Below, one piece after another: positions 21,190-28,975 of a stretch of DNA of 44,324 nt. This DNA is from an uncultured Eubacteriales bacterium (GTDB taxonomy: Bacteria; Bacillota; Clostridia; Oscillospirales; Oscillospiraceae): assembly GCA_900319695.1 (NCBI GenBank), contig ONPN01000042.1, positions 1-44,324 of the forward strand. Direction: 5' to 3'. The position numbers and the translations under genes are program-made. How positions within the stretch are numbered: the stretch's first letter is position 1; every line of letters starts with the position of its first letter. Under the pieces are notes generated by a model. The model was not told the DNA's origin and searched no databases. It worked only from the letters and a program-made list of their open reading frames with translations.

Positions 21190-22398
21190 TTATCCCCCGT
21201 ACACGAGCACGGTCAGCGCGGTGTAGACCGCAGTCAACCCCAGGAGCAGCAGGCCCTGCTTGAGGCGGTGCTCCGTGAGAAGGCCCACGAACTCACGCAC
21301 GGCGGCGTTTGGCCAGAAGTACCACTTTGTCGGCGCGCCCATGCCGACGGCGCGCATCTTGACCTGCCGCGCCTTGAGCCCGGCGCGGAAGACATGATAA
21401 TTTGTTGTGAAAAACGCGACCTTGCCCATGCCCGCAGCCTCGATCTTCGCCTTGGAAAAGCGCATGTTCTCCGCCGTATCGGTGGACTGATCCTCCAGGA
21501 TGATACGCTCGGCCGGGACGCCCTTCGAGAGCAGCCAGTCACGCATGGAGGCGGCCTCCGACTGGACCTCGTCCGGGCCCTGGCCGCCGGAGACCACGAA
21601 GCGCGCCTCCCTGCCCGTCTCCTCACGCTGTCGCTCATCAAAGTGCAGGGCAAGCTCCAGACGGCCTCGGAGCAGCGGCGTGGGCGTGCCGTCCTTTTTC
21701 AGGCCGCAGCCGAGGACGATCAGATAATCCTTGTCGCACTCCGGCACATAGCGCGCGGCGAGCAGATCGGCCACGATCGAGCCGAAGATCATGCACTCAA
21801 AATACAGATAGAAGGCCGCCAGCAGGTTCACGATCAGATTCTCCGCGAGGCTTCCGCCGGTGACGGCGCTGTGGAGATCCAGCACCGCGATCAGCCCCGC
21901 GCCCGCCATGATGAGAAAGGCGAGGATCATGCCGAGGATGTTGACAAAGCGCCGCCCCTCATGCCGAATGAGCGAGACATTGGAGATAAACAGGGCCAGC
22001 GAAAAGCACAGCAGCAGCGGCATGGTCATGAGCATGTAATTTTTGGCGGAGTGGAGCAGCATGAACAGCATCTCCAGCGAGCTGTAGCCGCCGGGCTCCC
22101 GGAAGCAGCGCAGCGTCATGCTCAGGAATGTGATAAGGAGAAAGACGCAGAACAGCGCAAAGCCTGAATACAGAATCGTATTGTAGGAATACGGGTTATA
22201 GCGGAGCTGGCCGAAGAAGGCACGCAGCAGCAGGATCACCGCGCACGCAAAATAGAGCGTGAGGATCAGGCTGCCCCAGCGCAGGCGCAGCGTCTCCTCC
22301 GCGCGCAGGAGCGGCACAAAGCACAGCAGCGCAAGCGCGCTGAGCACCGCGACGCTGTACAGCTTGGGCTTGACGTCTCTCGTATTGAATCTTAGCAT
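21190..22398 (-). CDS. YdcF/SanA-like DUF218 membrane protein
   Basis: A 402-residue membrane protein. The first half has about six helices; the second half (about 220-370) is a DUF218 domain (YLIVLGCGLKKDGTPTPLLRGR, FVVSGGQGPDE, SEAASMRDWLLSKGVP, ILEDQSTDTAENMRFSK), and a last helix lies at about 380-400. Family members are linked to envelope and polysaccharide metabolism, for example cyclic enterobacterial antigen or vancomycin barrier phenotypes, but the reaction is not settled. It follows the precursor peptide gene after a 13-base-pair hairpin. Only a weak purine run (AAGAGAG) lies before the ATG. Linkage to the exporter may be loose. Confidence 0.85.
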   Translation of the reverse strand: MLRFNTRDVKPKLYSVAVLSALALLCFVPLLRAEETLRLRWGSLILTLYFACAVILLLRAFFGQLRYNPYSYNTILYSGFALFCVFLLITFLSMTLRCFREPGGYSSLEMLFMLLHSAKNYMLMTMPLLLCFSLALFISNVSLIRHEGRRFVNILGMILAFLIMAGAGLIAVLDLHSAVTGGSLAENLIVNLLAAFYLYFECMIFGSIVADLLAARYVPECDKDYLIVLGCGLKKDGTPTPLLRGRLELALHFDERQREETGREARFVVSGGQGPDEVQSEAASMRDWLLSKGVPAERIILEDQSTDTAENMRFSKAKIEAAGMGKVAFFTTNYHVFRAGLKARQVKMRAVGMGAPTKWYFWPNAAVREFVGLLTEHRLKQGLLLLGLTAVYTALTVLVYGG

Positions 22399-22479: not shown

Positions 22480-22713
22480 TCAGGGTCTGGTGCTGTAGTC
22501 ACCGACAACGAGTGTAGTGAACGGGATTTCACTGTTCTGCGCTTCATACCCGGGCGGCGGCGTAACTCCAAGGCCGCCGTTCGGCATTCTTCTGCGCACG
22601 AGTCTGACAAACCAGGAGTCACGGTCCAGGCCGTCAGCCCCCTCGTAGAGGCTGGTGCCGCCCATGACCAGATCCAGGATGTCGTCGTCCAACACGGTTT
22701 TCTTGTCTGTCAT
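22480..22713 (-). CDS. double-glycine leader precursor peptide
   Basis: A 77-residue precursor. The leader MTDKKTVLDDDILDLVMGG (1-19) has the acidic/hydrophobic spacing and Gly-Gly end recognised by C39 peptidases, and shares K-T-V-L-x4-L-x2-V-x-GG with the leader of the Cpl-7 protein at 28377-28706. The 58-residue core starts TSLYEGADG, has a basic helix (WFVRLVRRRMPNGG), a PPPGYE turn and no cysteine, so lanthionine or disulfide formation is not expected. No modification enzyme is encoded nearby. The start was chosen at the second of two close ATGs, 7 bases after GGGAGG. It is the last gene of the export operon, 32 bases after the second transporter. A bacteriocin or a signalling peptide are both possible. 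Confidence 0.75.
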   Translation of the reverse strand: MTDKKTVLDDDILDLVMGGTSLYEGADGLDRDSWFVRLVRRRMPNGGLGVTPPPGYEAQNSEIPFTTLVVGDYSTRP

Positions 22714-22745
22714 TGTCATTCCTCCCGATTCGGATTGCTGAGCGT

Positions 22746-24956
22746 TCACTTTGCGGCCGCGGCCGTCTCTGTCGGGACGTCCAGGCGCTGGCGCGCAACC
22801 AGCTCCGCGAAGAAGCCGTTTTTCGCGATCAGCTCGTCATAGGTGCCGTCCTCCATGATGTGCCCCTTGTCGAGCACGAGGATGCGGTCGCAGTTGCGGA
22901 TGGTGGAGAGGCGGTGCGCGATGACGATGCGGGTGCACTTGAGCTTGTCGAGCGCGTCCGACACCTGCTTCTGCGTGCGGTTGTCAAGGGCGGAGGTCGC
23001 CTCGTCGAAGATCAGGATCTTGGGCTTCGGCGCGACCGCGCGCGCGATCATCAGCCTCTGCTTCTGGCCGCCGGAGATACCGCCCGCGCCCTCGGCAATG
23101 ATGGTCTGCATGCCCATGGGCATGGCGCGGATATCGTCGGCAATGCCCGCCATCTCAGCTGCCGCCCAGGCGTCGTCCAGCGTGAGCTGGGGCGCGGAGA
23201 TGACGATGTTGGAGTAGATGTCCCCCTGGAAGAGGCTGCCGTCCTGGGTGACGGCGCCGATCCTGCGGCGCAGGGAGCGCAGATCCAGCTTGGACATGTC
23301 CTTGCCGTCGTAGTAGATGGCGCCCTTTTCCGGGGTCTCAAAGCCGAGCATCAGGCGCACCAGCGTGGATTTGCCGCAGCCGGTCGTGCCGACGAGGGCG
23401 ATGTACTCTCCCGCCTTGATCTTGAGACTCATCCCGTCGACCACATAGGGCATGGTGTCGGTATAGCGGAAGTAGACGTTTGAAAGCTCGATCGCGCCGT
23501 TGAGAGAGGTCACCATGGTCTTGTTCTCGGAGGACTCGGGCTCCGCCTTGAGGATGGGCTCCGCCATTTCGAGGATGGGCTTGATCTGGGCAACCGACAG
23601 GGCCATGCCCGTCAGCGCGCCGAAAGCGCCGGAGACCATGCCGAAGGCCGCGTTAAAGGCGATGTACTCCGAGCCGCTGACTTTGGTCTGCACCGCGAGG
23701 TAGTAGAGCACGACCGTACCGAGCAGCTCAATGGCCAGGGAGATCGCCCCATTTACCTTGATGAACAGGGGCGGGTTATAGGTGAGCTCGGCGACCTTGG
23801 AGTAGGCGTCCGCCCAGCGGGCGAAGGCGCGCTTCTCCGCGCCGGCGAGCTTGACCTTCTGTACGCCGGAGACCATGGCAAAGGCGATGCCGTTCTCCTT
23901 CGCCCCCAGCTCCATGGCCTGCTTGCTGATGCTCATCTGCCGGAAGGAGGCGATCAGGCTGACCGCGAGCGAGGCGGCCAGGATCAGCAGCGCCGGGGTC
24001 ACCAGCGCGGGCGCGTAGTGGAAGATCTGCGTGATGTACAGCAGACTCGTCAGCGCCCCGAGGCCCGTGGAGAAGACGCTGCCCAGCAGCAGACTGCTCA
24101 GCTGATTGACGGAGTTTGAGCGGCTGGACAGTTCGCCCGAGGAGAACTTGCGGAAGAAGTTGGCCGGCAGGTTCATAATACGCATCATGACCGCGGCCTC
24201 CACGGCGAGGGAGGTCTTGATCTCGAGGCGGCTCATCATCAGCTCGCGCACGCTTGTGATGATCTGGCTGGAGAGGATGGCCGTCAGCATAAAGACCGCC
24301 GTGCCGACCAGCAGATTCGTGCTCCCGCTGTCCAGCACGAAGCCGGTGAGCACGCGGGTGATGGGCGTCGCCACCATGCCGAAGAGCGTGACAAGCAGAG
24401 ACATGGCGACGATGGCGACATAATCGCCGACGTCCAGGCAGTTTGTGAGGTACTTGATCAGGTCCGCAATACCGAGTTTCTTAAGGGGCAGGGGCTTATA
24501 GAAGCAGATCGCCTCCGCCTCAAACGCCTCCGCTGTCTTTTTGTTGAGGTTCTCCTTTTTGCCGCTTGCCGGATCCCGGTACCAGTAGCCCTTGACCTGC
24601 TTGGGCATGAGAGCCACGGGCAGGCCGTCCTCCTTGCGGAAGGCGATCATCGGGCCGTAGGCGTCCTTGTACCAGTCCTCTTCGAGCCTGACGCCGCGGC
24701 GCATGATGCCGTGCGGACGCAGGCAGTATTCCAAGGCCTCGTCCGCGTCGTGGATGCTGCCGGGGATTTCAACAGGCTTTGCGCGGTAATACTTCAGAAT
24801 GTCGTCAATGGCCGCCTTGGTGATGACGCGGTTGTCCTCCAGGTCGTTAGCGCCGCGCTGTCCGAGCACGACGGAGGCCATGCGAAAAATGGATTCTTCA
24901 AAGGTGTCCTGATCCTGCTGCTTGCGCATCCGGATCTGTTCGTCAAACCATCCCAT
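22746..24956 (-). CDS. ABC exporter (NHLM-type second transporter, ATPase fused to permease)
   Basis: A 736-residue exporter half. Residues 1-150 are an extra cytoplasmic N-terminal domain without peptidase residues, as in the second transporter of NHLM-type bacteriocin systems. About 165-460 hold six membrane helices. The ATPase domain has Walker A GTTGCGKST (523-531), signature ISGGQ (627-631), Walker B ILIFDEATSALD and the His of IVIAHRLST. GAGGAGG precedes the ATG. It starts 13 bases after the C39 transporter gene, so the two are very likely co-produced and may form a heterodimer or act in sequence on leader peptides. Confidence 0.92.
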   Translation of the reverse strand: MGWFDEQIRMRKQQDQDTFEESIFRMASVVLGQRGANDLEDNRVITKAAIDDILKYYRAKPVEIPGSIHDADEALEYCLRPHGIMRRGVRLEEDWYKDAYGPMIAFRKEDGLPVALMPKQVKGYWYRDPASGKKENLNKKTAEAFEAEAICFYKPLPLKKLGIADLIKYLTNCLDVGDYVAIVAMSLLVTLFGMVATPITRVLTGFVLDSGSTNLLVGTAVFMLTAILSSQIITSVRELMMSRLEIKTSLAVEAAVMMRIMNLPANFFRKFSSGELSSRSNSVNQLSSLLLGSVFSTGLGALTSLLYITQIFHYAPALVTPALLILAASLAVSLIASFRQMSISKQAMELGAKENGIAFAMVSGVQKVKLAGAEKRAFARWADAYSKVAELTYNPPLFIKVNGAISLAIELLGTVVLYYLAVQTKVSGSEYIAFNAAFGMVSGAFGALTGMALSVAQIKPILEMAEPILKAEPESSENKTMVTSLNGAIELSNVYFRYTDTMPYVVDGMSLKIKAGEYIALVGTTGCGKSTLVRLMLGFETPEKGAIYYDGKDMSKLDLRSLRRRIGAVTQDGSLFQGDIYSNIVISAPQLTLDDAWAAAEMAGIADDIRAMPMGMQTIIAEGAGGISGGQKQRLMIARAVAPKPKILIFDEATSALDNRTQKQVSDALDKLKCTRIVIAHRLSTIRNCDRILVLDKGHIMEDGTYDELIAKNGFFAELVARQRLDVPTETAAAAK

Positions 24957-24969
24957 TCTTCACACCTCC

Positions 24970-27150
24970 TCAGTCGCTGGAAATGAGCTCTGTATAGTAG
25001 CCGCCCCTGGCGTAGAGCTCCTCATGGGTGCCGCGCTCGATGACCTTGCCCTTGTCGAGGACAATGATCTCGTCGCAGTCGCGTATGGTGGACAGACGGT
25101 GGGCGATCACGATGCAGGTGATGCCGCGCTCCTTGACGGCCTTGACCAGCTCATACTCGGTCTTGGCGTCCAGCGCGGAGGTAGCCTCGTCCATGATGAT
25201 GACGGAGGGATCCTGGGCCAGGACGCGCGCGATCTCGATGCGCTGGCGCTGGCCGCCTGAGAGATCCTTGCCGCCCTCTGTGAGCTTGCCGTAGAAGCCG
25301 CCGTCGCGCGCCATGATGTCGTCGTAGATCTGGGCGTCGCGCGCGGCGAGGATCATCTCGAAGTCCTCGATGGAGTTGTCCCACATCTTGATGTTGTTGG
25401 CAATGGTGTCCTCAAAGAGGGTGATCTCCTGGTCGACGACCGCGACCGAGCCGGTGAAGACGCTGCGGTCGATCTCGGAGATGGGTTTGCCGTCGAAGAG
25501 GATCTCGCCGCTCCAGGGCTGATACAGTCCGGAGATCAGCTTGGAGAGCGTGGACTTGCCGCAGCCGGAGGTGCCGACAAAGGCGACGCGGCTACCGGGC
25601 TTCATGTTCATGGAAAAATGCTCGATCAGGGGCTTGCCGAGGCGGGAGTAGCCGAAGCTCACATCCCTGAGCTCCACCGCACCGGAGAGCTTGGAGTAGT
25701 CCGCGTCCTCCTGCAGCGGCGTATCGCTGAAGCTGGGGTCTGTGGGATACTGCATGACGTCCTCGACGCGCTCCATATCGGTGCGCATCTCCTGGATGGT
25801 CTGTCCTGCCGAGACCAGCGTCATGGCAGGCGCCATGAAGGCGCTCAGAAAGCCCTGAAAGCTCATGATCGAACCGAGGGTGAACTCGCCGTGCATCGCG
25901 AGCCCCACGCCGATAACCATGACGGAGGCGCTGGCAATGGAGCTCAGCACAGCCGGGATCACACCGAGATACTGGTTGAGCTTGGCGTACTTCACTTTCT
26001 GGGTGTTGACCGAGGCCTGATAGCCGGCCCATTTCTGGAAGTAGCCGTTCTCCGCGCCGCTGGCCTTGATGGTCTCCACCATCTGGATACCGGAGACCGT
26101 GGCCGCGACGAGCTTGCCGGCGTCGCGCATCTGCACGCGCGTGATGTTCACGCGCTTGGAGGAGATAAGCTGGGACGTCAGAAGGTTGAGCACGATGGTC
26201 ACAATGCCGATGAGCGTGAGCAGGGGGCTGAGCCTGAGCATCACAAAGAGATAGAAGAACATCATAAGCGTGTTCAGCAGCAGCGGGGTCAGCGTGTTTA
26301 CCAGCGTGCCCGCGATGGTGGCGTTGGTGCTCTGGCGCTGGAGGATATCGCCCGCCATGCGCTGGGAGAAGAACTCCATCGGCATGCGCAGGATCTTCCA
26401 CATGTATTCACTGCTTCCAACAACGCTCATCTTGCCGTCGATCTTGCGCGAATAGATCGCCTGAACCCAGGAGACGACCACCTGCGCCAGCCCCATCAGG
26501 CTCAGCAGAAGGATAAACGGCATCAGCAGCTCGCGGTTCTCGCCGGTCAGAAGTCTGTCCATAAAGAAGCGGCTGAAGATGGGGTTGATGATGCCGAAAA
26601 GGGAGCTGATCACCGTCGAAATCAGCACGAAGGCCACCGCCGCGCCCGCGCCGCGCAGGCGCTTGCGGGCAAAGTCCAGCGTGCTCTTGCGTTTGCCGCC
26701 CGGCTCAAAGGCGGGCCCCGGGGTGATCTGCAGGCAAATGCCCGTAAAAGCCTGGTCAAGCTCCTCCATGGTGATCCTGACCTCGCCGCGGGCGGGATCG
26801 TTTATGTAGGCGTGCTTTCCCTGGAAACCGTCAAGCACCACAAAGTGGTTGAAGTTCCAGTGGATAATGCAGGGCAGGCTGATGCTGTCGCGCAGCGCAG
26901 AGAGCTCACAGCGAAAGCCCTGGGCCTCAAAGCCGTAGTTGCGTGCGGCGATCAGGATGTTTTTGGCGCTCGACCCGTCGCGGGAAACGCCGCAGTCAAG
27001 GCGTACCTGCTCAAGCGCCACCCACTTGTCATAATAGGCCATGATCATCGCCAGCGAGGCCGCGCCGCATTCCAGCGCCTCCATCTGCATGACGACCGGA
27101 ACCTTGGCCCGCTTTCCGATCACCGGTTTTTTTATCTTGTCCTTTGCCAT
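24970..27150 (-). CDS. C39 peptidase-containing ABC exporter (PCAT)
   Basis: A 726-residue exporter that cuts double-glycine leaders and moves the mature peptide out. The N-terminal C39 peptidase is intact: Gln22, Cys28 in ALECGAASLAMIMAYY, His102 in NFNHFVVLDGF and Asp118 in INDPARG. Six helices follow (about 165-455). The ATPase shows Walker A GTSGCGKST (526-534), DLSGGQRQR (629-637), VIIMDEATSALD and IAHRLST. Size and order fit NHLM-type peptidase/ATPase transporters. Within the window two genes have matching leaders, the peptide at 22480-22713 and the Cpl-7 protein at 28377-28706; these are its likely cargo. Confidence 0.95.
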   Translation of the reverse strand: MAKDKIKKPVIGKRAKVPVVMQMEALECGAASLAMIMAYYDKWVALEQVRLDCGVSRDGSSAKNILIAARNYGFEAQGFRCELSALRDSISLPCIIHWNFNHFVVLDGFQGKHAYINDPARGEVRITMEELDQAFTGICLQITPGPAFEPGGKRKSTLDFARKRLRGAGAAVAFVLISTVISSLFGIINPIFSRFFMDRLLTGENRELLMPFILLLSLMGLAQVVVSWVQAIYSRKIDGKMSVVGSSEYMWKILRMPMEFFSQRMAGDILQRQSTNATIAGTLVNTLTPLLLNTLMMFFYLFVMLRLSPLLTLIGIVTIVLNLLTSQLISSKRVNITRVQMRDAGKLVAATVSGIQMVETIKASGAENGYFQKWAGYQASVNTQKVKYAKLNQYLGVIPAVLSSIASASVMVIGVGLAMHGEFTLGSIMSFQGFLSAFMAPAMTLVSAGQTIQEMRTDMERVEDVMQYPTDPSFSDTPLQEDADYSKLSGAVELRDVSFGYSRLGKPLIEHFSMNMKPGSRVAFVGTSGCGKSTLSKLISGLYQPWSGEILFDGKPISEIDRSVFTGSVAVVDQEITLFEDTIANNIKMWDNSIEDFEMILAARDAQIYDDIMARDGGFYGKLTEGGKDLSGGQRQRIEIARVLAQDPSVIIMDEATSALDAKTEYELVKAVKERGITCIVIAHRLSTIRDCDEIIVLDKGKVIERGTHEELYARGGYYTELISSD

Positions 27151-27160
27151 CCGTCAGCCC

Positions 27161-27580
27161 TCATTTATTGAACAGCAGGCTGAGCACCTGCGTGTATTTA
27201 TAGCTGACGCGCACGTTATAAAAGCCGTCGGAGAGACCCGTCTGCGCGGTGGCGATGATGAGACCGTTGGAGTCCCGGCCGACGTTGGCGACCGTGCAGG
27301 TATGCTCACCGGCGGTGACGGTCATGCCCTCCTCAATGTTTTTGGCGAAGTTCTGATCCGTGAAACGGATGGTCATCAAACCGCCCTTCACCTCGGCGCT
27401 GCCCTCTGCATAGCTTTCGACCACCGCGGAAGAGCTCCAGATCAGCAGGCCCGCGAGCAGCAGCACAACGGCCAGCAGGATCACCCAGACGGTGGGGCTG
27501 GTCACGCGCAGATAGTCGTTGAGCTGCTCCGGCGACGAGATGCGGTCGATGCTTTTTTCGCGAAACAGGTTTTGTTCCAT
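27161..27580 (-). CDS. short HlyD-like membrane fusion protein of the exporter
   Basis: A 139-residue protein with a cytoplasmic N-terminus (EQNLFREKSIDRISSPEQLNDYLRV), one membrane helix (about 31-51) and a small extracellular beta domain (GSAEVKGGLMTIRFTDQN, EGMTVTAGEHTCTVANVG). The N-terminus and helix match the adaptor subunits of NHLM-type export systems, but the long coiled-coil hairpin of normal adaptors (250-400 residues) is absent. It could be a minimal cap for export across a single membrane. AAGGAG lies before the ATG; the transporter gene begins 10 bases after its stop. Confidence 0.75.
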   Translation of the reverse strand: MEQNLFREKSIDRISSPEQLNDYLRVTSPTVWVILLAVVLLLAGLLIWSSSAVVESYAEGSAEVKGGLMTIRFTDQNFAKNIEEGMTVTAGEHTCTVANVGRDSNGLIIATAQTGLSDGFYNVRVSYKYTQVLSLLFNK

Positions 27581-27612: not shown

Positions 27613-27918
27613 TCAGTCGTTCACGATATTCAGGATATCGACGAAGCCCGTCACCTCAAAGATCTCCATAATGGCCTCGCTCACATGGCGAAGGGTCATG
27701 CCGCCCTTTTTCGCCATGAGCTTCTGTGCCGAGAGCAGCACACGAAGTCCGGCAGAGGAGATGTACTCCAGCTTTTCAAGGTCCAGCTCCAGTCTGTCCG
27801 CGCCGTCCAGCGCCTCTCTGAGCTCGCCCTCAAGCTGGGGCGCGGTAGTCGTGTCCAGACGTCCCTCCAGCGCTGTGTTCAAAACGCCGTTATCCATTGC
27901 TTTTTCAATCTTGAGCAT
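27613..27918 (-). CDS. STAS-domain protein (anti-sigma factor antagonist type)
   Basis: A 101-residue single STAS domain, like SpoIIAA/RsbV. The loop that carries the phosphorylation site in this family reads YISSAGLRVLL (about 52-62). Members usually bind an anti-sigma kinase in their unphosphorylated form and so release a sigma factor. No anti-sigma kinase, phosphatase or sigma factor is encoded in the window. It is the first gene of the exporter operon, directly after promoter 28008-28036, and AGGAGG precedes the ATG. It may couple exporter activity to a regulatory switch, or act on a partner encoded elsewhere. Confidence 0.85.
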   Translation of the reverse strand: MLKIEKAMDNGVLNTALEGRLDTTTAPQLEGELREALDGADRLELDLEKLEYISSAGLRVLLSAQKLMAKKGGMTLRHVSEAIMEIFEVTGFVDILNIVND

Positions 27919-28007: not shown

Positions 28008-28036
28008 ATTATACTCTCCCCCCCGGGCGAAATCAA
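28008..28036 (-). promoter_or_regulatory. sigma-A promoter of the STAS-exporter operon
   Basis: Minus-strand TTGATT (28036-28031), 17 bases, perfect TATAAT (28013-28008). The 83-base leader contains a CCCC-TT-GGGG hairpin and an AGGAGG site before the STAS gene. Confidence 0.7.
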
Positions 28037-28055: not shown

Positions 28056-28281
28056 ATGTAAATCCCCATGCGGTAATGCCGCACCACGATGAATAAAAGC
28101 TGATTCATGGGGATTTACATGTGCATGAAATCCGGTTGCCGCGTGAGCGGCGAGGACACCACGATACATGAAAGCATAGTCAGCATGGGGATTTACTTGT
28201 GCATGAATTCCGGTTGCCCCGCCAGGGGCGAGGAATTCGCACATTTAAATCTTACTATGGAAGCGTCAGCTTTCATAGTAA
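28056..28281. repeat. triple-hairpin repeat, copy C, with internal 78-base tandem duplication
   Basis: Hairpin 1 (28056-28120) pairs ATGTAAATCCCCATG with CATGGGGATTTACAT exactly. Two GGTT/GA hairpins follow: 28131-28156 with inner stem GCCGC/GCGGC, and 28205-28238 with inner GCCCC/GGGGC and outer GAATTCC/GGAATTC. CATGGGGATTTAC recurs at 28184, giving a 78-base tandem unit. Hairpin 3 (28252-28281) pairs TTACTATGGAAGC with GCTTTCATAGTAA. It fills most of the 458-base gap between the Cpl-7 gene and the STAS gene, outside the STAS promoter. Confidence 0.75.
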
Positions 28282-28376: not shown

Positions 28377-28706
28377 TTACCGCCAGATCATGTTGTTGAC
28401 GAGTTTCTGAACCTGATCGGGGTCATAGCCCGCGCGGATCAGGTTGTTGCGGCGGGCGGCGCCGTCGCCGTACTTGCCGTTCATCACGTCGTTCGCGACA
28501 GGGCCGTAGCCCTTGCACAGGGCGTTGACCAGGGACTGAACGTCGTTATAGTTATAGCCCGCGGCCGCGAGGTTTCTCTTGCGCGCCTCGCCGTCGCCGT
28601 ACTTGCCGGCCAGAACGTCATAGGCGCAGGCCAGATTTGCGGTCACGCCGCCGGAAACGGCGTTAAGCTGCTCCTCGTTGAGGACGGTTTTGTTCTCTTC
28701 ACTCAT
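28377..28706 (-). CDS. double-glycine leader fused to two Cpl-7 (CW_7) cell-wall-binding repeats
   Basis: A 109-residue protein. Residues 1-20 (MSEENKTVLNEEQLNAVSGG) are a bacteriocin-type leader ending in Gly-Gly. The remaining 89 residues are two tandem units of about 40 (AYDVLAGKYGDGEARKRNL...AGYNYNDVQSLVN and ANDVMNGKYGDGAARRNNL...AGYDPDQVQKLVN). These match the Cpl-7 lysozyme repeat pattern (V-x-x-G-K-[WY]-G-x-G-x-x-R...L-x-x-A-G-Y-x-x-x-x-V-Q-x-x-V-N), with Trp replaced by Tyr. Cpl-7 repeats bind peptidoglycan muropeptides. There is no catalytic domain and no Sec signal. It was started at the ATG 8 bases after AGGAGG. It has its own strong promoter just upstream of the exporter operon, so the C39 transporter is the likely exporter. 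It contains two cysteines. Confidence 0.85.
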   Translation of the reverse strand: MSEENKTVLNEEQLNAVSGGVTANLACAYDVLAGKYGDGEARKRNLAAAGYNYNDVQSLVNALCKGYGPVANDVMNGKYGDGAARRNNLIRAGYDPDQVQKLVNNMIWR

Positions 28707-28753: not shown

Positions 28754-28782
28754 ATTATAGCAAAGGAGCACGTTTTTGTCCA
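28754..28782 (-). promoter_or_regulatory. strong sigma-A promoter of the Cpl-7 leader gene
   Basis: Minus-strand TGGACA (28782-28777), 17 bases, perfect TATAAT (28759-28754), about 48 bases before the ATG. One mismatch to consensus overall suggests high expression. Confidence 0.75.
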
Positions 28783-28808: not shown

Positions 28809-28975
28809 TTAAGGAAACACCGCATAATCCGTCTTCGGCATCTTCCGGAAAAATTGCGCTCTGATTTTGTCACTTTTTCTTGAAATACACAAAGTATTCC
28901 TGCGAAAAACTGCCTTCATCAGAACTCAATTTTTCTCGAAATCTGCTCTTGCCGAATTATGCGGTGTCTCCTTAA
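28809..28975. repeat. TTGA/TGC-loop palindromic repeat, copy 2 (full length, MITE-like)
   Basis: 167 bases with inverted ends TTAAGGAAACACCGCATAAT and ATTATGCGGTGTCTCCTTAA (one mismatch over 20). The apex is TTTTTC-TTGA-AATAC-ACAAA-GTATT-CC-TGC-GAAAAA. No gene inside. Its right end overlaps the TAA stop codon of spoVAE, and its left end lies about 27 bases upstream of the -35 of the Cpl-7 gene promoter. Confidence 0.75.

Follow-up and report, generated by a model that had tools for sequence, protein, structure and literature searches.

The 44,324-nucleotide stretch of DNA analysed here (the window), from an uncultured rumen bacterium, encodes on its reverse strand a 109-residue protein (positions 28377..28706) in which a 20-residue double-glycine leader is joined to an 89-residue core of two CW_7 repeats. 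The gene lies close to those of a C39 exporter on the same strand, and all genes and promoters given below by window coordinates are on this strand. We propose, with about even confidence, that this protein binds peptidoglycan without any catalytic function, that it leaves the cell by the C39 route and that it coats or remodels the wall, limiting the access of hydrolases. The proposal draws on what can be read from sequence, namely the leader, the CW_7 repeats and their contact residues, purifying selection, linkage to and co-occurrence with the exporter, and a partly shared promoter element. In its wider form, which we judge to be evenly balanced as well, one rumen Oscillospiraceae lineage would use double-glycine leaders and C39 exporters as a second general secretion pathway for CW_7, LysM, SH3_3 and PepSY modules, many of them in the regulon of a SARP-like response regulator, and would build from them a non-catalytic, proteinaceous wall coat.

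Residues 1–20 form the leader (MSEENKTVLNEEQLNAVSGG, 28647..28706), which ends in GG, and residues 21–109 contain only CW_7 repeat 1 (28518..28625, E 2.8e-14) and repeat 2 (28389..28499, E 7.1e-14). Against CW_7 (PF08230) the protein scores 103.6 bits, where the Pfam cut-off is 25, and a Pfam search of the 109 residues found no other domain and, in particular, no catalytic domain by which a phage endolysin would be recognised. The preliminary description, which had proposed a 20-residue double-glycine leader followed by two Cpl-7 repeats and nothing else, is therefore upheld in its composition, its Cpl-7 identity and its lack of catalysis. Its expectation that the leader would be conserved among homologues is also borne out, GG being invariant in 35 of 35 family leaders. 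Leader model A4, in which the window gene's own leader is one of the rows, matches this leader with E 8.5e-8 in its own genome. The double-glycine motif and its conservation are present, while curated bacteriocin-leader models (Pfam, NCBIfam) score below cut-off. The term 'bacteriocin-type' names the leader here and not a demonstrated activity. The core is under purifying selection, as judged from 11 hand-chosen sequence pairs. The gene has a good ribosome-binding site and is preceded by TGGACA-17-TATAAT (28754..28782), by its sequence an ordinary sigma-A-like promoter. An inverted repeat with 45-nt arms, 73% complementary, lies just upstream of this promoter (28809-28975) and resembles a small MITE-type element.

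In an AlphaFold model, most of the core is predicted with confidence, and the top structural matches are two Cpl-7 entries, PDB 4CVD and 5I8L. One repeat superposes closely on 4cvd, whereas alignment of the whole module to 5i8l gives a large deviation, so that the arrangement of the repeats is either different from that of Cpl-7 or unreliable in the model. In the excerpted text of PMC5705596, the muropeptide contacts of Cpl-7 are Arg271, Gln286, Val260, Gly266 and Val289. Their equivalents are kept, in that order, in 35, 35, 35, 35 and 33 of 35 family sequences in repeat 2, and in 33, 35, 22, 35 and 33 of 35 in repeat 1, whose hydrophobic contact positions are less conserved across the 35 members. 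In the window protein the Arg271 equivalents are R42 and R85 and the Gln286 equivalents Q57 and Q100, and the residue equivalent to N267 is D in both repeats. Compared with the Cpl-7 endolysin module (CW_7, PF08230; 4CVD, 5I8L), the window protein shares the repeat fold and the peptidoglycan-contact residues, but it has two repeats instead of three, a different repeat arrangement in the model and no catalytic domain, and the double-glycine leader and C39 link are its own. Two variants of the family were also seen. A leadered subfamily carries a single CW_7 repeat and a conserved C-terminal DPYLG tail (L001:1342-1668, L030, L124-L128), and in two tandem paralogues (L079:1223-1582, L100:7736-8158) repeat 1 has, by eye, drifted from the contact residues, each being paired with an intact neighbour.

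Downstream of the CW_7 gene are the genes of an NHLP-type C39 exporter with two ABC subunits. A second promoter-like sequence, TTGATT-17-TATAAT (28008..28036), precedes genes for a STAS-domain protein of the anti-sigma antagonist type (27613..27918), a short HlyD-like protein of 139 residues (27161..27580), the C39 peptidase/ABC exporter of NHLP ABC1 type (24970..27150), which passes its curated cut-off and is placed in the exporter tree described below, and a second ABC exporter subunit of NHLP ABC2 type (22746..24956; TIGR03797, 728 bits against a cut-off of 709.4). The HlyD-like protein matches only the first 48 positions of TIGR03794, and its 27 bits are far under the cut-off of 156.2. Overlapping the end of the ABC2 gene by 4 bases is a gene for a second leadered peptide (22480..22749) with a VMGG leader end and a core containing DSWFVRLVRRRM; it has no Pfam or NCBIfam match, and similar SWFV peptides are present at the exporter loci of relatives. 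A DUF218 membrane protein (21190..22398) follows the exporter, as it does in one other locus (L074). Between the CW_7 and STAS genes lie two 51-nt direct repeats, 88% alike and 78 nt apart (28106-28234).

Both ABC subunits pass the curated cut-offs for NHLP/Nif11 natural-product export (TIGR03794/03796/03797), as that system is set out in the excerpted text of Haft et al. 2010 (PMC2887384). Unlike the precursors described there, the window leader is 20 residues and not long and nitrile-hydratase-like, with no TIGR03793 match; the HlyD protein is shortened, and no LanM was found at the window locus. In a tree of 48 exporters, a branch with support 99/95 sets apart a group of 37 rows that includes all 29 labelled as CW_7-linked, the rooting being by midpoint only and the branches outside the 37-row group being long. 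For the other 8 of the 37 rows, the loci fetched were short and contain no CW_7 gene. A lanthipeptide-type exporter of the same genome falls outside the group. This second C39 exporter lies on contig C49 (L211, G000:C49, 2121-13082) in an apparently separate NHLP lanthipeptide-type cluster, whose genes were named by eye as an NHLP precursor, a LanM-like and a radical-SAM-like gene; among the loci searched, the window included (ORFs of at least 150 aa), LanM occurs only in this locus, from which the LanM query itself came.

The source genome and 26 of the 60 others examined from its genus, which are rumen and gut Oscillospiraceae MAGs, encode leadered CW_7 proteins. A genus-weighted search of 99 genomes gave matches in the own genome, in the same 26 of 60 genus genomes and in 4 of 38 genomes of the order, where the matching frames are 308–329 aa and have no leader match. 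Among 394 order genomes, 18 had CW_7 matches (the own genome and 17 others), and no leadered CW_7 was found in the 393 others; here the best first-look candidates, at most 12 per genome (at most 15 in the LysM search below), were scored, so that absence from the order is not exhaustive. All matches in the 17 other order genomes start at model position 26 or later. A scan of named genomes returned 67 loci, mostly from rumen or other gut MAGs labelled Ruminococcaceae, Oscillospiraceae, Clostridiales or Clostridia, one of the leadered loci, L101, being labelled Lachnospiraceae. From our reading of the 67, 59 belong to the leadered group and 8 are unleadered CW_7 loci, three of the 59 (L066, L115, L121) being cut off before the leader.

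The leadered genes are linked to C39 exporters. A C39 gene was found in the fetched flank of 27 of the 59 leadered-group loci (L066 among them) and of 0 of the 8 unleadered loci (Fisher p 0.018), a value that overstates independence since the genomes are related MAGs of one genus. Where a fetched locus held both genes, they were on the same strand (27/27). Among the 61 genus genomes, the own included, C39 is present in 26 of 27 with leadered CW_7 versus 11 of 34 without, and in 19 of the 27 it is on the contig of the CW_7 gene, the same strand being used every time. When leadered LysM is also counted (query start at most 8, short frame, E < 1e-9), 32 of the 34 genomes that have either module in leadered form possess C39, versus 5 of the 27 that have neither, the five being G021, G039, G045, G050 and G059. 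The C39 linkage put forward in the preliminary description thus stands as a tendency, with C39 somewhere in 26 of 27 genomes and on the same contig in 19, but a stronger form, that C39 is always near, is ruled out by the 8 of 27 genomes without C39 on the same contig. Strict dependence on C39 is argued against by G009 (65% complete) and G060 (93% complete), where modules are present and no C39 was found, and by L064 and L065 (relatives at 71–74% identity), whose fetched flanks contain no C39, L064 reaching only 1.6 kb on one side. C39 is present with L066 and in G054, nearer relatives than L064 and L065.

CW_7 shares its leader type with stand-alone LysM, SH3_3 and PepSY domains encoded in the own genome. 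Judged by these sequences, CW_7 is one of several predicted cargoes, a genome-wide set of leadered envelope modules. Beside many CW_7 genes are other leadered small proteins, chiefly single LysM domains of two kinds; for the first kind, no match listed outside the own genome covers model positions 1–8 in the 394 order genomes (best candidates, at most 15 each). Searching the own genome with a model of the leader alone gave 17 places at E up to 10, in frames that are all 42–125 aa long; this is not an independent test since the model was partly built from leaders of this genome. Pfam assigned the cores to LysM, PepSY (3.3e-9) and SH3_3 (1.8e-6, 28.4 bits, cut-off 27), each a single module with no further domain recognised, and left other leadered cores without assignment or as zinc-ribbon-like below cut-off. 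Applied to 16 hand-chosen control genomes, all at least 90% complete, the leader-only model matched 8 of 8 with C39 and 0 of 8 without, one of the matched genomes (G054) having contributed a row to the model; this result rules out a chance leader. One leadered LysM copy (L243, G000:C94:36963-37247) has a second half unlike LysM and is apparently broken. Leadered PepSY proteins, possibly exported peptidase inhibitors, were noted at L376:3954-4217 (G000:C39:24453-24716; by Pfam) and at L297 and L323 (by eye).

Part of this set shares a promoter element. Of 113 leadered genes, 38 (18 CW_7, 15 LysM and 5 other) have the pattern TGTGA-N6-TGTGA upstream, and in 30 of the 38 the best -10-like match is at one fixed distance from it. 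These loci hold 43 occurrences in 1.67 million strand-bases, 36 of them inside the listed upstreams. A stricter TGTGACA direct-repeat pattern has 147 sites, spread over 23 of the 61 genomes, compared with 4 for the reversed control. All 21 genomes that encode a close orthologue of one response regulator (own included; E 1e-116 or better, identity at least 64%) have the element, versus 2 of the 40 others; at E 1e-20 the regulator has matches in 31 genomes, 10 of which have only paralogues of at most 38%. The own genome's copy of the regulator gene, at G000:C39:24811-25617, is immediately followed by a leadered PepSY gene, and a TGTGACA site lies between the two. The regulator has a receiver domain and a C-terminal region that matches EmbR (E 3.6e-5, profile positions 123–196). 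Trans_reg_C matches all 5 members of this family weakly, with a best E of 0.0068 and, for member 1, 15.2 of 26.2 bits, and the structure model is unreliable there.

According to the excerpted text of PMC10972967, SARP sites are heptameric repeats, classically 11 bp apart, that overlap the -35 region. The present element resembles them in that its direct repeats are heptameric, recur every 11 bp with 4 nt between them and lie at a fixed distance before a -10-like box, and the EmbR match of the regulator is a further likeness. It differs in that the regulator has a receiver domain, the sites precede exported envelope proteins and the window gene has no motif. In many, not all, genomes, the module set is a candidate part of the regulon of an OmpR/SARP-like response regulator; 12 genomes with leadered modules have no TGTGACA site. 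The motif is also absent from the window, including the region before its CW_7 gene, so that this gene can be excluded from the motif regulon. A CTTAA block before TGGACA/TTGACA promoters occurs in two forms in 9 and 10 of the 113 leadered upstreams, with 5 and 1 occurrences elsewhere in 2.26 million strand-bases, and is suggestive only of a second shared element. In the window this block sits at the end of the inverted-repeat element.

A survey covered 60 of 70 sites in seven hand-chosen genomes (G000, G009, G015, G024, G027, G056, G059). Thirty-three sites precede double-glycine-leadered genes, 27 by rule and 6 by reading (L331, L340, L356, L357, L365 and L374, the last ending in GA, not GG), 19 precede genes for Sec-type or membrane proteins, and 8 are other, unclear or without an ORF. 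Because of the Sec-type and membrane proteins, the element is not specific to the C39 export route. Two leadered peptides under the same element (L325, L338) are, by eye, GxxxG-rich and class II bacteriocin-like, which fits an antimicrobial programme. These peptides and the Sec-type proteins speak against a pure coat reading.

Altogether, we envisage the following sequence of events. The CW_7 protein is synthesised, as its sequence shows, with a 20-residue double-glycine leader, which the C39 domain of the neighbouring exporter would recognise and cut after GG, exporting the 89-residue core with VTANLACAY as its predicted N-terminus, as linkage, co-occurrence and leader type suggest. Once outside, each CW_7 repeat would fold and bind GlcNAc-MurNAc-L-Ala-D-isoGln units, as the conserved contact residues suggest, and would do so first in the producer's own wall, the most likely target by our inference. 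Together with co-exported LysM, SH3_3 and PepSY modules, the core could then coat or remodel the wall surface and limit the access of hydrolases, whether phage lysins, host lysozyme or enzymes of rivals; this last step is the least certain of the four.

C39 exporters are usually read as parts of bacteriocin or signal-peptide systems, and CW_7-type modules are better known as the targeting parts of lysins and hydrolases. Here, the likely C39 cargo includes folded modules otherwise known from such enzymes, and a bacteriocin-type exporter that apparently releases a family of wall-binding proteins suggests a second job for the export route. If this is true, exporter loci annotated as bacteriocin clusters may be secreting proteins of a wall coat, and it becomes testable whether wall hydrolases can be blocked or retuned by a natural means that needs no catalysis. 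Every part is known. Their combination, in which one lineage would send a set of stand-alone wall-binding modules through a bacteriocin-type exporter, was not encountered in the open-access literature searched. In that literature we found no description of a CW_7/Cpl-7, LysM or SH3 module with a double-glycine leader. CW_7 is described in wall hydrolases and wall-metabolism proteins in the excerpted text of PMC3466307 and PMC5705596, and the terms LysM, SH3 and cell wall-binding are absent from the main text of a 2026 rumen bacteriocin survey (PMC13289728).

The core could alternatively act as an unmodified bacteriocin-like inhibitor that binds the peptidoglycan of competitors and disturbs wall growth or division, binding itself being the toxic act. 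Class II bacteriocins usually leave the cell by means of a double-glycine leader and a C39 exporter, and the GxxxG-rich peptides of G024 and G056 (by eye) use the same leader type and promoter element; since bacteriocin-like peptides share both, an antimicrobial role is possible. According to the excerpted text of PMC3482391, OmpA in polymorphic toxins has been proposed to be a toxin domain that binds peptidoglycan without catalysis. The window protein shares with class II bacteriocins (Bacteriocin_IIc, TIGR01847, TIGR01193) the short GG-ending leader and a nearby C39 exporter, but differs in its 89-residue folded wall-binding core and in a leader below the curated cut-offs, and no small immunity gene was recognised among recurrent neighbour clusters (at least 5 loci, ORFs of at least 60 aa). 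Moreover, the reported ligand is a general peptidoglycan unit, presumably present in the producer too, the core is conserved under purifying selection, and the genes are scattered over the genome alongside leadered LysM, SH3_3 and PepSY genes. We therefore regard inhibition as a tentative and rather unlikely explanation.

Doubtful, and somewhat less probable again, is a role as wall-bound adaptors or scaffolds, neither protective nor toxic, that hold other exported proteins or tune the producer's wall hydrolases. With its two binding sites the core could link strands, large secreted proteins recur among the neighbours (clusters 3 and 12), and PepSY domains are known as peptidase inhibitors. 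Against this, no partner was identified, and in the LysM, SH3_3 and PepSY cores no domain besides the one module was recognised.

We consider a sporulation or cortex module highly improbable. By eye, the window gene does have sporulation-type neighbours and the single-repeat copy on C48 has spoIIA-like ones, neighbour cluster 26 is common to the window gene and L064/L065, and there are weak SafA-like LysM matches below cut-off. However, the promoter is sigma-A-like, the other CW_7 loci shown have different neighbours and, within the genus, the modules track C39.

A decayed prophage endolysin fragment with a chance leader has a negligible probability: CW_7 is common in phage lysins and 95 phage records match, but the promoter is shared in part of the family, and genus-wide leader conservation, purifying selection on the core and the C39 link rule this origin out. 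Among the matches listed for viral loci (at least 80), 84 ORFs match the family, 3 of them shorter than 170 aa and none of these 3 double-glycine-leadered by reading, and in two longer ORFs (L154, L159) the match segments reach model positions 1–10.
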